NCBI RefSeq assembly: GCF_001428125.1
Contig: NZ_LMSM01000001.1
Span: 249,306-313,305, forward strand
DNA: 64,000 bases
Direction: 5' to 3'
From: Nocardioides sp. Soil774
GTDB taxonomy: Bacteria; Actinomycetota; Actinomycetes; Propionibacteriales; Nocardioidaceae
Below are positions 24,382 to 61,099 of the stretch, one piece after another; position 1 is the first letter of the stretch; each line of letters begins with the position of its first letter. The notes under the pieces are model-generated. The model was not told the origin of the DNA, ran no database searches, and was given only the letters and a program-made list of their open reading frames with translations. The translations under genes and the position numbers were made by a program.

Positions 24382-25104
24382 TCAGAGGCTGCGCAGCACC
24401 GCCGTCACGACCCCGAGGATCGTGGCGTTGTCGCCCGGGATCGGGTCGTAGGCGTCGTTGTGGGGGAGCAGCCACACGTGGCCGTCCTTGCGCTGGAACG
24501 TCTTGACGGTCGCCTCGCCGTCGATCATCGCGGCCACGATCTGCCCGTTGGTCGCGGTCTGCTCCTGGCGGATCACGACGTAGTCGCCGTTGCAGATGGC
24601 CGCGTCGACCATCGAGTCACCGGAGACCTCGAGCAGGAAGAGGGTGCCCTCGCCCACGAGCTGCTTGGGCAGCGGGAAGACGTCGGTGACCTGCTCCTCG
24701 GCGAGGATCGGGCCACCGGCGGCGATGCGGCCGACGACGGGGATGTTGACCGCGGTGGGGGAGATGTCGCCGATGCCGGTCTCGTCGACGCTCGACTCCT
24801 CGCCGCTGGAGATGGAGCGGCGCGCGGCCATCACCTCGGGCAGGAACACCTCGAGGGCGCGCGGGCGGTTGGGGTCGCGCTTGAGGAACCCCTTGTTCTC
24901 CAGCACCCGCAGCTGGTGGGCCACGCTGGAGGAGGAGGTCAGCCCGACGGCCTGGCCGATCTCGCGCATGCTCGGCGGGTAGCCCTTGGTCTCGATCGAG
25001 TCCTTGATGGTGGCGAGCACCCGCTGCTGGCGCGGCGTCAGGCCGGTGGCGTCCGGGGGCCCGTCGGGCATCTCGATGACGTTCTTGTCCTCTGACCTGG
25101 CCAT
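24382..25104 (-). CDS. lexA: SOS repressor LexA
   Basis: 240 aa. The winged-helix DNA-binding domain covers residues 22-90 ([27 protein letters not shown]). The self-cleavage bond is Ala129-Gly130, with catalytic Ser164 (GDSM) and Lys201 (ATVKTF). RecA filaments trigger cleavage and induce the SOS regulon. A LexA box lies in its own promoter, and further boxes precede the SDR, LysM and HNH genes of this window. Confidence 0.96.
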
Positions 25105-25166: not shown

Positions 25167-25196
25167 ACCGTAGCCGTCCCGGGGCCCGTGGATCAA
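25167..25196 (-). promoter_or_regulatory. lexA promoter
   Basis: On the minus strand TTGATC (25191-25196) and TACGGT (25167-25172) are spaced 18 nt apart. The -35 overlaps the LexA box at 25194-25207, as expected for autoregulation. Confidence 0.5.
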
Positions 25197-25207
25197 ACAC
25201 CTGTTCG
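25194..25207. promoter_or_regulatory. LexA (SOS) box shared by lexA and the divergent SDR gene
   Basis: CAAAC-ACCT-GTTCG matches 9 of 10 arm positions of CGAAC-N4-GTTCG. It overlaps the lexA -35 and the expected -35 of the plus-strand gene starting at 25235. Confidence 0.7.
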
Positions 25208-26072: not shown

Positions 26073-26154
26073 CGAACATTTGTTCGTGCCGGTGCTTGAC
26101 GCCTTCGAACACGTGCTCTAACGTCGTACACCTGTTCGATCGAACGTCTGATCG
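26073..26154 (+). promoter_or_regulatory. Promoter with a cluster of four LexA-like boxes
   Basis: Box 1 (26073-26086) is a perfect CGAAC-N4-GTTCG. Boxes at 26106-26119, 26125-26138 and 26141-26154 match 8, 9 and 9 of 10 arm positions. A promoter TTGACG (26096-26101) with TAACGT (26119-26124), spacer 17 nt, is embedded so that box 2 fills the spacer. It drives the LysM gene at 26249 through a ~118-nt leader. Confidence 0.75.
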
Positions 26155-58393: not shown

Positions 58394-59131
58394 TCAGCCG
58401 CAGGGCACGGCGCCGAGGCGCGCCAGGCCCTCGCGGTCGCCCGGCCCCAGCTCCACCTGACCGGTGTTGTCGGCGAACATCAGCTCCATCGGCTCCGGCA
58501 CGTGGGCGAGCCCGACCACGTGGGCCAGCTCGTGCACCACGATCGCCTCGACGACCCGCGGCTGCTGCGCGACGGCCGCGTCGGTGAGGGCGGCCGTGTC
58601 GAGCGCGATGCCGCCCGTCACGTAGTAGCGGCGACCCCGCGCACCCTCCTCGGGTGCAGCACCGCCGAGCCCGGCGACCGACCCGGCGAGCTCGGGGAAC
58701 TCCGTCTCGTCGCCCCACCCGATGACCACCGGGCGCCCGCCGCCCAACGGCACGAGGCTGCCGGTGAAGGGGCGACGGTCGGTGTCGCCGTCGTCCTCGA
58801 AGACCAGCCCGGTCGCCGCGGAGATGCGCGCGATCGCGCGGTCGACGAGCGGCCGGGCTCCCGCGGGCATCTCGGCCGGGTTGACGGCGTAGGACACCGG
58901 CGAGCACGGGTCCCACGCGACCGGCTCGTCCGAGCCCGGCTGCGTCGCCGCGAAGGCGTACGCCCCACCGCGCGCCTCGATCGCCGGGGCGGGCAGCAGC
59001 CGCTCGCGCCCGAGGCCGATCAACCCTCGGACGGTCTCCATCTGCGCCGACGGGTGCAGCAGCACGACCGCTGCCAGCAGCGCAGCGGTGACGACGACCG
59101 AGAAGGTGGTCGAGGTCCGGCGGCGGGGCAC
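58394..59131 (-). CDS. Matrixin-type zinc metalloprotease
   Basis: 245 aa. N-terminal signal anchor (residues 10-27). The zinc site HELAHVVGLAH is complete (His200, Glu201, His204, His210) and a Met-turn MELM follows. The segment RPLVDRAIARISAATGLVFED is the helix before the active site in M10-type peptidases. Secreted or membrane-tethered protease. Confidence 0.82.
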   Translation of the reverse strand: MPRRRTSTTFSVVVTAALLAAVVLLHPSAQMETVRGLIGLGRERLLPAPAIEARGGAYAFAATQPGSDEPVAWDPCSPVSYAVNPAEMPAGARPLVDRAIARISAATGLVFEDDGDTDRRPFTGSLVPLGGGRPVVIGWGDETEFPELAGSVAGLGGAAPEEGARGRRYYVTGGIALDTAALTDAAVAQQPRVVEAIVVHELAHVVGLAHVPEPMELMFADNTGQVELGPGDREGLARLGAVPCG

Positions 59132-59191
59132 GGGACGAGTATCGCCGGGTGGTGGTGGCGCTCGGGTCGGATCAGGTGAGATCCGCCGGGA

Positions 59192-59476
59192 TCAGGCGGG
59201 CGTGCGCGGGCGGACCAGCCGCGGCCCGTGGTGGAGCCGCCCGATCGCTGCCCCGACCTCCGACAGCGCGTCGATCGCGTCGCGCACGCCCTCGTCCCAC
59301 AGGTACGCCGACGCGGCCGCGGTGCGCTGCTCGCGCTGCCACCGCGCCAGCAGGCGCTCGAGGACGACCTCGGCCTCACGTCGTGACGCTTCGACGTCGC
59401 TCATGCGCGCGTCACGGTGGGCCGAGGCCGCGGCATGCGCGACCCGGTCGTGGTCGAAGCTGCCGATGGGGATCAC
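59192..59476 (-). CDS. Hypothetical helical protein
   Basis: 94 aa from a GTG start with AGGGGA 6 nt upstream; MSDVEASRREAEV (start 59403) is an alternative. Charged helices with RREAEVVLERLLARWQREQRT. No family recognised. Confidence 0.4.
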   Translation of the reverse strand: MIPIGSFDHDRVAHAAASAHRDARMSDVEASRREAEVVLERLLARWQREQRTAAASAYLWDEGVRDAIDALSEVGAAIGRLHHGPRLVRPRTPA

Positions 59477-59866
59477 TCATGTCCCCTGCCCGCGCGTCGG
59501 GCGTGCCATGCGCCGATTGAGGAGGTCTAGAGACAACCGGGACGAGTCCTTTACTTCACCTAGACAGTCAGGGCCTCGTGGGTGGCGAGGTCGCGAGGAG
59601 CGTGGAACCCGTCCTCACGCTTCTTGTCAACGTATCCGAACACGTGTACGATGGCGTGAGCACGCTGATCCGGAACGGGTCCCACGTCTGAGGTGACGGG
59701 GATCCCGGGGTCAGGACAGTCACCCATAGAACCCGTCGTGGTGCTGGCGGGATGCCTTGCGGCTCACCGGTGACGACCCGGCAATGGGTGCCATCAGTCA
59801 TGCCTCACCGTTCTCGCCCCGGATCCTGGGCGGTGTCCAGTGAGCGCGTGCGAGGAGGTGGCCCCC
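59477..59866 (+). other. 390-nt regulatory leader region upstream of the HNH gene
   Basis: No gene is seen. It holds the promoter and LexA box described separately and an imperfect inverted repeat CGTGGAACCCGT/ACGGGTCCCACG (59601-59612, 59677-59688) around the promoter. Near 59510 GATTGAGGAGGTCTAGAGAC resembles a degenerate interspersed repeat. Confidence 0.5.
59624..59652 (+). promoter_or_regulatory. Promoter with LexA box for the HNH gene
   Basis: TTGTCA (59624-59629) and TACGAT (59647-59652), spacer 17 nt. CGAAC-ACGT-GTACG at 59637-59650 matches 9 of 10 LexA-arm bases and overlaps the -10. Confidence 0.7.
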
Positions 59867-61099
59867 GTGGATCGAGTGCATCCGATCGTCGAGTGTGCGG
59901 CCGACGTCCGTGCCGCGCTGAAGGGTGCCGCGTCGGTGGAGCCGGCGTTCATGACGCTCGCGGAGAAGCGGTCCGCGCTGGTCGCGTTGAACGAGGCGCG
60001 TTCGCAGCTCGACGCGCTGAGTGTGCGGCTGCTGGCCGCCTCTGACGAGGTGGGGGAGGTGCAGGGTCTGCGGGACGCGGCGGCGTGGCTGGCGGTCGAG
60101 ACCCGCACGACCCGCGCGGCGGCGCGGCGTGACCTGGCGCTGGGGCGGGCGCTGGAGCAGCGCCCGGGCGTCGCGCACGCACTCACCTCCGGCGGGCTGC
60201 GCACCGAGCAGGCCCGCGTGATCGTGGAGGCGGTCGACGCGCTCCCGGCGCGAGTGGACGCCCAGACGCGGGAGCGGGCGGAGTCGGTGCTGGTCGGGCT
60301 CGCCGCGCAGCACGACGCGCGGGAGCTGCGGCAGATCGGGAAGCGGATCCTGGACACGGTTGCTCCGGAGGTGGGGGAGTGCCACGAGGAGTCGGTGCTG
60401 CGGGAGGAGGAGTCGCGGGCCGACGCGGGCGTGGACTTCGCGATGTCCGACGACGGCGAGGGCCGCTGCCATGGCACGTTCACGGTGCCGTCCCACGTCG
60501 GGAAGATGCTGAAACGGCACCTCCAAGCGCTGGCGAACCCGGCGCGGCACACCGAGGCCGAGCTGCGTGACGAGGCTGGCGGGTGGACGCCGTTGCGGCG
60601 TCGGATGGGGGAGGCGCTGGTGGAGTACGTCGAGCGCTACCCGGTGACGGCGTCCCCGCAGACCGCGGGGGTGAACGCCACGATCGTGGTCACCATGACG
60701 TTGGAGCAGTTGTTGGGTGAGCACGCGACCGCGCTGCTGGACGACGGCACCCGGATGACCGCGGGCCAGGCCCGCCGGCTGGCGTGCGAGGCAGCCATCA
60801 TCCCGGTCGTGCTGGACTCGAAGTCGCAGCCCATCGACCTCGGCCGGGCAGCGCGGTTGTTCACCCGCGCGCAGCGCATCGCCCTCGGTCTGCGTGACGG
60901 CGGCTGCACCGCCCGCGGCTGCGAGACCTCCGCGTCTGGCTGTCATGCCCACCACGACGACCCGTGGTCCCGCGGCGGGTTCACCGACCTGGCCAACGGC
61001 CGGCTCCTCTGCCCTCGTCACCACCGCTTGGCCCACGACTCCCGCTACGCCATGACCGTCCACGCCGACAACAAGGTCGAGTTCGCCAGGCGGACGTAG
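59867..61099 (+). CDS. DUF222/13E12-family HNH endonuclease-like protein
   Basis: 410 aa, GTG start with GAGGAGG 8 nt upstream; a GTG 27 nt earlier has no ribosome site. DUF222 helical domain (residues 1-300, REARSQLDALSVRLLAASDE type) and a C-terminal HNH site CTARGCETSASGCHAHHDDPWSRGGFTDLANGRLLCPRHHRL with the zinc Cys and catalytic His. The 13E12 family occurs in many copies in Mycobacterium, some with SOS boxes. The LexA box upstream here fits damage induction. The substrate is not established. Confidence 0.85.
   Translation: MDRVHPIVECAADVRAALKGAASVEPAFMTLAEKRSALVALNEARSQLDALSVRLLAASDEVGEVQGLRDAAAWLAVETRTTRAAARRDLALGRALEQRPGVAHALTSGGLRTEQARVIVEAVDALPARVDAQTRERAESVLVGLAAQHDARELRQIGKRILDTVAPEVGECHEESVLREEESRADAGVDFAMSDDGEGRCHGTFTVPSHVGKMLKRHLQALANPARHTEAELRDEAGGWTPLRRRMGEALVEYVERYPVTASPQTAGVNATIVVTMTLEQLLGEHATALLDDGTRMTAGQARRLACEAAIIPVVLDSKSQPIDLGRAARLFTRAQRIALGLRDGGCTARGCETSASGCHAHHDDPWSRGGFTDLANGRLLCPRHHRLAHDSRYAMTVHADNKVEFARRT

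Follow-up and report, generated by a model that had tools for sequence, protein, structure and literature searches.

It is very probable that the DUF222-HNH (13E12 family) gene found in the window, i.e., the whole 64,000-nucleotide stretch of Nocardioides sp. Soil774 DNA that was analysed, is a LexA-repressed, DNA-damage-inducible member of its nuclease family, and that the family as a whole is part of the actinobacterial DNA-damage response, with LexA, PafBC, or the two together controlling most of the sampled genes. The observations that carry this explanation were made on the DNA itself: a LexA box, a promoter and their conservation, the enrichment of two damage motifs, a covarying leader that is linked to the gene, and dispersed copies. 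In actinobacterial genomes, DUF222-HNH genes are a multi-copy family of obscure role, commonly put down as repeats or mobile debris.

The window gene, its promoter and its LexA box

The features of the window that concern the gene and its presumed repressor are the following:

24382-25104, minus strand: lexA, the presumed repressor gene (open reading frame with LexA-type sequence)
25194-25207, minus strand: one-mismatch LexA box CGAACAGGTGTTTG, about 90 bp upstream of lexA
59624-59652, plus strand: promoter TTGTCA-N17-TACGAT, the sole promoter-like site in 59100-60000
59637-59650, plus strand: LexA (SOS) box CGAACACGTGTACG in direct reading, overlapping the -10
59853-59858, plus strand: Shine-Dalgarno AGGAGG of the window gene, ahead of the GTG at 59867
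59867-61099, plus strand: DUF222-HNH (13E12 family) protein gene, the window gene (L001); PF02720 E 2.1e-31, PF01844 E 1.5e-4
59978-60898, plus strand: DUF222 domain of the window gene (residues 47-353, open reading frame numbered from 59840)
60935-61039, plus strand: HNH nuclease motif of the window gene (residues 366-400, same numbering)

The preliminary description had placed a LexA box over the -10 of the only clear promoter of a DUF222-HNH gene, and this is what is seen. Scanning both strands of 59100-60000 gave one promoter-like site (mean of 0.0 in shuffles), with the -10 hexamer TACGAT at 59647-59652. The box is one base off the palindrome CGAAC-N4-GTTCG, and the odd base lies inside the -10 hexamer. 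The GTG at 59867 is favoured as the start over the alternative GTG at 59840 because the Shine-Dalgarno sequence precedes the former.

A single one-mismatch box is weak evidence by itself. Allowing up to one mismatch, CGAAC-N4-GTWCG has 18 matches in the window versus 11.9 expected, a number reached by 9 of 100 shuffles and not significant inside the window alone, and CGAAC-N4-GTTCG has 156 matches per strand in the whole genome versus 113 for the reversed control. The frequency of one-mismatch boxes by chance, together with the CACGTG included in the window copy, would suit a chance site or an E-box-like palindrome for another factor. That reading is hardly credible given that 22 of the 25 Nocardioides leaders in the alignment keep the half-sites but have AGGT or AGGC in place of the central ACGT, and given that exact boxes stand at the same kind of gene throughout the phylum.

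In the same 25 leaders, the half-site CGAAC and the GTAC of the second half are present in all and the last G in 23; the TTG of the -35 and the TAC..T of the -10 are likewise unchanged in 25 of 25. The upstream flank of the box, the -35 apart, is little conserved, with most adjoining positions varying. The alignment comprises 25 of 26 distinct leaders; L063, L064, and L084 are outside it, and all three carry the box, as do all collected leaders. Because the Nocardioides leaders share descent, 25 conserved boxes do not represent 25 independent events. Both features that mark a LexA-regulon member, a box overlapping the promoter and its retention in relatives, are found at the window gene. The comparative evidence is decisive: the box is convincing because of the leader conservation, because two close paralogues of the window gene in its own genome carry the same kind of LexA box, and because of the phylum-wide enrichment described below.

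The open reading frame at 24382-25104, which we take to be lexA, has its own box about 90 bp upstream, as expected for autoregulation. Near it, at 26073-26154 of the window, a cluster of LexA boxes (CGAACATTTGTTCG, CGTACACCTGTTCG, and CGAACGTCTGATCG) was observed upstream of a gene for a small protein starting at about 26250 on the plus strand. This protein is presumably LysM-like, and the gene is possibly of the SOS division-inhibitor type.

The protein encoded by the window gene belongs to the 13E12 (DUF222-HNH) family, with 109.9 bits for DUF222 (PF02720) against a gathering score of 24.4, and 22.3 bits against 21.4 for the C-terminal HNH (PF01844). Both histidine pairs of the HNH motif are unchanged across 17 aligned sequences (L049, which has a stop, and L039 and L051-L054, which have frame breaks, were left out of this alignment). 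Among the named relatives in the contig search of genomes, at up to 80% identity, all 22 loci were from Nocardioides. Searches of the protein with PADLOC, PHROGs, and NCBIfam returned nothing informative beyond HNH. An AlphaFold2 model of the protein had a mean pLDDT of 65.8, with only a helical N-terminal portion being reliable, and Foldseek found no match to this model in the PDB at E<=0.001; because of the low pLDDT and the lack of a significant match, no function was derived from the model. We infer the nuclease activity of the protein and its role.

The arrangement of box and promoter suggests how the gene would be controlled. LexA bound to CGAACACGTGTACG would cover the -10 and keep the gene repressed; upon DNA damage, RecA would trigger the self-cleavage of LexA, transcription would begin a few bases 3' of the box, and the transcript would pass through a structured leader of about 210 nt into the nuclease frame. 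The other family members would be controlled by one of the two regulators, LexA or PafBC, or by the pair; in the latter case the LexA box adjoins the PafBC-type promoter on its downstream side or falls within it. The binding of LexA and PafBC, the induction, the transcription start, and the function of the RNA are all what we infer from sequence.

Two damage motifs in the genome and across the phylum

Exact CGAAC-N4-GTWCG gives 27 oriented hits, corresponding to 17 places in the 3.85 Mb of the genome, while the reversed control gives 0. Three Pfam-detected DUF222 genes have such a box upstream (the window gene, C5:444149, and C8:230032). Other exact boxes adjoin genes that we take from their sequences to be recA, uvrA, and ruvC, one is found about 0.5 kb ahead of a frame for a dnaE2-type polymerase with a PHP domain (PF02811, E 1e-21), and one precedes a 481-residue protein at C6:573785 (L026), which was missed by Pfam and has 29% identity (E 3e-25) to the group-B DUF222 protein L089. 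Some of the 17 places may be chance hits, at the least L025 and L027, each of which is internal to a long reading frame. Two further observations concern this set. The boxes L023 and L024 (G000 C5:445484 and C5:445582), 98 bp apart, both lie in the interval that separates a group-A DUF222 gene from a divergent frame (beginning MSSARSITALDPGRSVVEQLR), and this is perhaps a shared SOS promoter region. At L021 (G000 C5:199467), the exact box TCGAACATGTGTTCGA lies just 5' of a 138-residue open reading frame on the minus strand, which has no Pfam match at E<=0.01 and is a candidate SOS gene.

The genome has 15 PF02720 matches, 13 of them above the cut-off, which makes the family multi-copy here. 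A lack of boxes at the other copies, along with no induction by damage, had been named beforehand as evidence against SOS membership, and the part on the boxes is half borne out: the LexA box is found at 3 of the 15 copies, but 10 of the remaining 12 carry the motif of a second damage regulon, that of PafBC, exactly in six and with one mismatch in four (L005, L009, L010, and L012). One copy, L006, has neither motif, and L014 is counted among the 15 despite having no upstream sequence. Two-mismatch "boxes" at group-B copies (CGATCATGCGTTTG and others) were rejected: these sites were left uncounted because they coincide with the start codons of leaderless genes (TAGAAT...ATGATCG).

The motif tTGTCRgtg-N8-TannnT has been described for RecA-independent (PafBC) damage promoters (PMC5656591), and related forms have also been reported (PMC8151990). 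The form TGTCRGTG-N8-TAnnnT has 21 exact sites in the genome, versus 0 for the reversed control, and seven of these are at DUF222-type genes, namely 6 of the 15 Pfam copies and L103. The other exact sites precede, among others, genes that we presume from their sequences to be sbcD, polA, recA, dnaB, uvrB, and uvrA. None of the 21 exact sites belongs to the window gene, which is labelled LexA alone even when one mismatch is allowed. L103 (C12:112) is 45% identical to the protein at C6:573785 (L026), and the two form a third group of DUF222-like HNH proteins in which L026 has a LexA box and L103 a PafBC motif; this would be another switch of regulator inside one subgroup. Two adjoining WYL-domain genes of the genome are candidates for pafB and pafC.

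Beyond this genome, DUF222 was found in 40 of 99 phylum genomes, the own one included, with 1-21 matches per genome. The sample studied comprised 95 DUF222 genes from 34 non-own genomes: 29 are the best match of their genome, and 66 were picked in addition among the matches listed (profile start at 31 or below, at most five per genome). The stretch searched for each gene consisted of 30 nt of the domain match and at most 500 nt of the DNA preceding it; L113, L117, and L122 were kept with shorter upstream stretches (143, 59, and 354 nt). An exact CGAAC-N4-GTTCG lies upstream of 40 of the 95 genes (mean of 0.10 in shuffled sequences, 0 in in-gene stretches of the same length, 0-1 for five control palindromes), and a box with up to one mismatch upstream of 69 (2.85 shuffled, 6 in-gene, 0-4 for the control palindromes), so that 29 of the 34 genomes have at least one gene boxed at this level. 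Given that the sample includes paralogues of the same genome, a count of 29 with one gene per genome was also made; it gives 11 exact boxes (0.00 shuffled, 0 in-gene) and 21 with up to one mismatch (0.85 shuffled, 2 in-gene). These numbers strongly support the earlier suggestion that the family is a long-standing SOS member.

The PafBC motif is exact in 15 of the 95 genes (0.00 shuffled, 0 in-gene) and present with up to one mismatch in 23 (0.35 shuffled, 0 in-gene). With up to one mismatch, either motif is found at 76 genes, which are spread over 30 of the 34 genomes, and neither at 19 genes, four genomes having none; this makes the role of 13E12 a testable question of DNA-damage physiology. 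Both motifs occur together at 16 genes from seven genomes, where the offset of the LexA box from the beginning of the PafBC motif is either 22-24 nt, which puts the box just behind the -10, or 10-11 nt, which puts it inside the motif. In the latter arrangement the two counts are partly dependent because the motifs share bases. Such adjoining or overlapping promoters are natural two-input switches on which the interplay of the two regulons could be studied.

On a tree of 125 proteins, made with FastTree and having several long branches, the four motif labels need 32 changes, versus 57.4 in shuffles. Control by one particular regulator is therefore not stable; it appears to be partly inherited and repeatedly switched, which such a tree allows to be said only coarsely.

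The leader RNA

The DNA of about 210 nt between the LexA box and the gene is conserved over part of Nocardioides, and its two parts are:

59659-59802, plus strand: structured core of the 5' leader RNA (7 helices and 35 pairs modelled; 27 distinct homologues)
59803-59866, plus strand: remaining leader, with the hairpin CGCCC..GGGCG and the Shine-Dalgarno AGGAGG (alignment A2, consensus fold)

A DNA search of 215 genomes of the genus gave matches to the leader in 25, those in G088, G123, and G206 being only of chance length (27-48 nt). From 40 listed places, 30 became loci, and the three chance matches (L077-L079) were excluded. A DUF222-HNH gene lies directly downstream of all 27 true leaders, split over two frames in L059 and L076.

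In the 27-row alignment of the core (A3), the seven-helix model pairs 96.6% of 938 cells, and 12 pairs are changed on both sides, in 26 such cells. None of 500 shuffles, which ignore relatedness, equals the model on any one of the five measures used, and a shift of the helix partners by 1-3 columns lowers the pairing to 29-53%, a control that is biased toward the model because the structure was taken from the RNAalifold consensus of 16 of the same sequences. The count of doubly changed pairs is thus stronger evidence for the fold than the slid control or the shuffles. The window leader alone is not more stable than shuffled sequence (minimum free energy, z 0.30), and for this reason the case for the structure is one of covariation only. 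Rfam covariance models gave no match at E<=0.1 in L001-L006, and in 59600-59900 of the window two matches at chance level (E 3.9 and 9.1). The covarying leader is a concrete candidate RNA family.

A consensus fold predicts pairing of the Shine-Dalgarno sequence with an upstream CCUC. These pairs hardly vary and show no covariation, and because of this the predicted sequestration proves nothing. Most likely the leader adds post-transcriptional (translational) control to that of the promoter.

A second, shorter type of conserved leader (CGAGCGAGCGAGCTCGGGCCC...) was observed upstream of the gene in L003, L037, L038, and L040. In L037 and L040 it comes with a LexA box of its own (CGAACACATATTCG and CGAACATAGTTTCG); in L003, half of the LexA box is lost and a PafBC motif is present. 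This type may be structured too.

IscB is an HNH nuclease whose gene is preceded by a structured RNA of about 200 nt, the omega RNA (HEARO). By this analogy, the leader would be the partner of the nuclease in an RNA-protein complex and not a translational regulator. The constant association of leader and gene in the 27 loci agrees with it, as do strongly conserved unpaired stretches of the leader (e.g., CAUAGAACCCG) and the HNH part, which weakly resembles IscB (phmmer E 0.038; top Foldseek rank with E 0.069 and probability 0.30). This structural match is not significant, however, and Pfam finds only DUF222 and HNH in the protein at E<=0.001, without the RuvC domain of IscB. Moreover, the group-B and L005 copies of the same genome have no such leader, and matches to the RNA model came from Nocardioides only: R1 matched 3 of 296 class genomes, the own one included, all at already-known DUF222 leaders. 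Absence outside the genus is weak evidence, because 10 candidates per genome and stricter filters were used and the sensitivity is limited. A partnership of leader and nuclease is therefore considered highly unlikely. The same low standing is given to its wider form, in which the LexA-controlled transcript would carry an undescribed RNA family acting with the nuclease as a damage-switched RNA-protein system, with promoter, RNA, and nuclease forming one heritable, copyable unit that resembles IscB in layout and not by descent.

Tight LexA control and a structured leader would also suit a harmful product, i.e., a nuclease for damage-triggered self-harm or programmed death that LexA and the leader RNA keep locked. 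The HNH nuclease MSMEG_1275 of M. smegmatis cuts the chromosome and is lethal on induction (PMC9416677). Nonetheless, the term DUF222 does not appear in the main text of that paper, over-expression was non-lethal for 4 of 5 HNH genes there (PMC9416677), and no antidote gene was recognised on inspection of the neighbours of the window gene. Such a self-harm role is unlikely; damage-inducible expression with a translational role for the leader remains the preferred reading.

Copying, long residence and comparison with known systems

SOS control is common in mobile elements too. It cannot choose between service to the host and selfishness, and the conclusion of the preliminary description that SOS membership speaks against a selfish element does not follow: the copies are dispersed as promoter-plus-gene units, and traits of mobile elements have been ascribed to the family (PMC5005354, citing Davis 2002), which also turns up among repeats returned by a mobile-element finder (PMC10589994). 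These descriptions would fit a selfish single-gene element, similar to a homing endonuclease, that uses damage promoters to copy itself during repair, its SOS wiring being self-serving.

The copies of the genome itself point the same way. The three group-A copies have 90-97% DNA identity in matched pieces; the similarity sets in 4-18 bp ahead of the LexA box, ends near the stop codon, and was not seen in the flanks. Among group-B paralogues, homology mostly begins no more than about 20 bp from the PafBC motif (47-90 bp before it in five pairs) and is lost no more than about 60 bp from the stop. L003 is chimaeric, its 3' 900 bp being group A at 90% and its 5' part and promoter unlike group A, and the copy number varies among genomes (1-21 in the 40 of 99 that have the family). 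These boundaries suggest that promoter and gene were copied as a unit, or else that the duplications are older and selection has kept just this unit alike; the first is preferred because the closest pairs favour it. The genes would then have been copied within genomes together with their damage promoters. In Nocardioides, the LexA-type genes are arranged as units of promoter, leader RNA, and nuclease. In two own-genome copies, L002 and L004, a single N is flanked on both sides by a repeat of about 57-113 nt; the structure of these copies is unreliable there because the N and repeats look like scars of repeat assembly.

Against selfishness, neither terminal repeats nor target duplications were noticed by eye, and gene conversion, reported for REP13E12 of M. 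tuberculosis (PMC13061034), is an alternative to mobility. Among 50,697 phage records, only 1 partial hit to a similar protein was obtained, and 72,556 plasmid records gave no more than 6, all distant. The neighbourhood argues for long residence: the order p58394-DUF222-p61198-p61753 recurs in another species (L237), where DUF222 is 71% and its neighbours 50-64% identical, and in a second species (L238) DUF222 lies beside p61198. At six loci (L239-L242, L246, and L247), p58394 and p61198 are 1.9-2.8 kb apart with no DUF222 match between them, and in two of the genomes concerned a DUF222 gene with the leader is located at another site (L249 and L250). Given that synteny coexists with dispersed copies, both long residence and local spread apply. 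A mainly self-serving element is somewhat improbable.

REP13E12 of M. tuberculosis harbours the attachment site of the prophage phiRv1. In PMC13061034, a "putative prophage attachment site" is mentioned for REP13E12, and gene conversion hotspots are described in it. The statement of the preliminary description that some mycobacterial 13E12 genes carry LexA boxes is correct for M. tuberculosis, where such genes belong to the LexA regulon (PMC4181829, PMC5005354), and where a repair system including some of the 10 HNH genes of the 13E12 family was proposed within that regulon (PMC4181829). SOS control of 13E12 genes in M. tuberculosis is thus already known. In open-licence PMC papers, no paper was found on DUF222 genes under LexA or PafBC control outside mycobacteria; as far as searched there, neither the leader RNA nor the phylum-wide pattern of dual LexA/PafBC wiring has been reported before. 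The second damage regulon and the structured leader RNA are also additions to the preliminary description.

With the IscB/omega RNA system, the window system shares the layout of an HNH nuclease gene after a structured leader RNA, and it differs in having no RuvC domain, no Rfam match for the RNA, and no significant similarity outside the HNH motif. With the PafBC regulon, seven other DUF222-type genes of this genome share the exact motif, which also precedes the genes taken to be recA, uvrA, uvrB, polA, dnaB, and sbcD; a term search finds neither HNH nor DUF222 in the main texts of PMC5656591 and PMC11804915, while five putative HNH endonucleases are given among the genes turned on in a RecA-dependent manner in PMC8151990. 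The actinobacterial LexA box is TCGAAC-N4-GTTCGA (PMC4181829); the half-sites, the position over the promoter, and the co-occurring boxes at recA, uvrA, ruvC, and dnaE2-type genes are common to that regulon, whereas here one base of the palindrome is ceded to the -10 hexamer TAC(G/A)(A/G)T. The closest counterparts are REP13E12 and the other 13E12 genes (Rv0515, Rv1702c, Rv3074, Rv3776, and others), which are likewise multi-copy 13E12/HNH genes and members of the LexA regulon, with gene conversion reported among them. The present copies differ in belonging to Nocardioides; those of the LexA type bear a structured leader RNA, and most other copies of this genome carry a PafBC-type motif instead.
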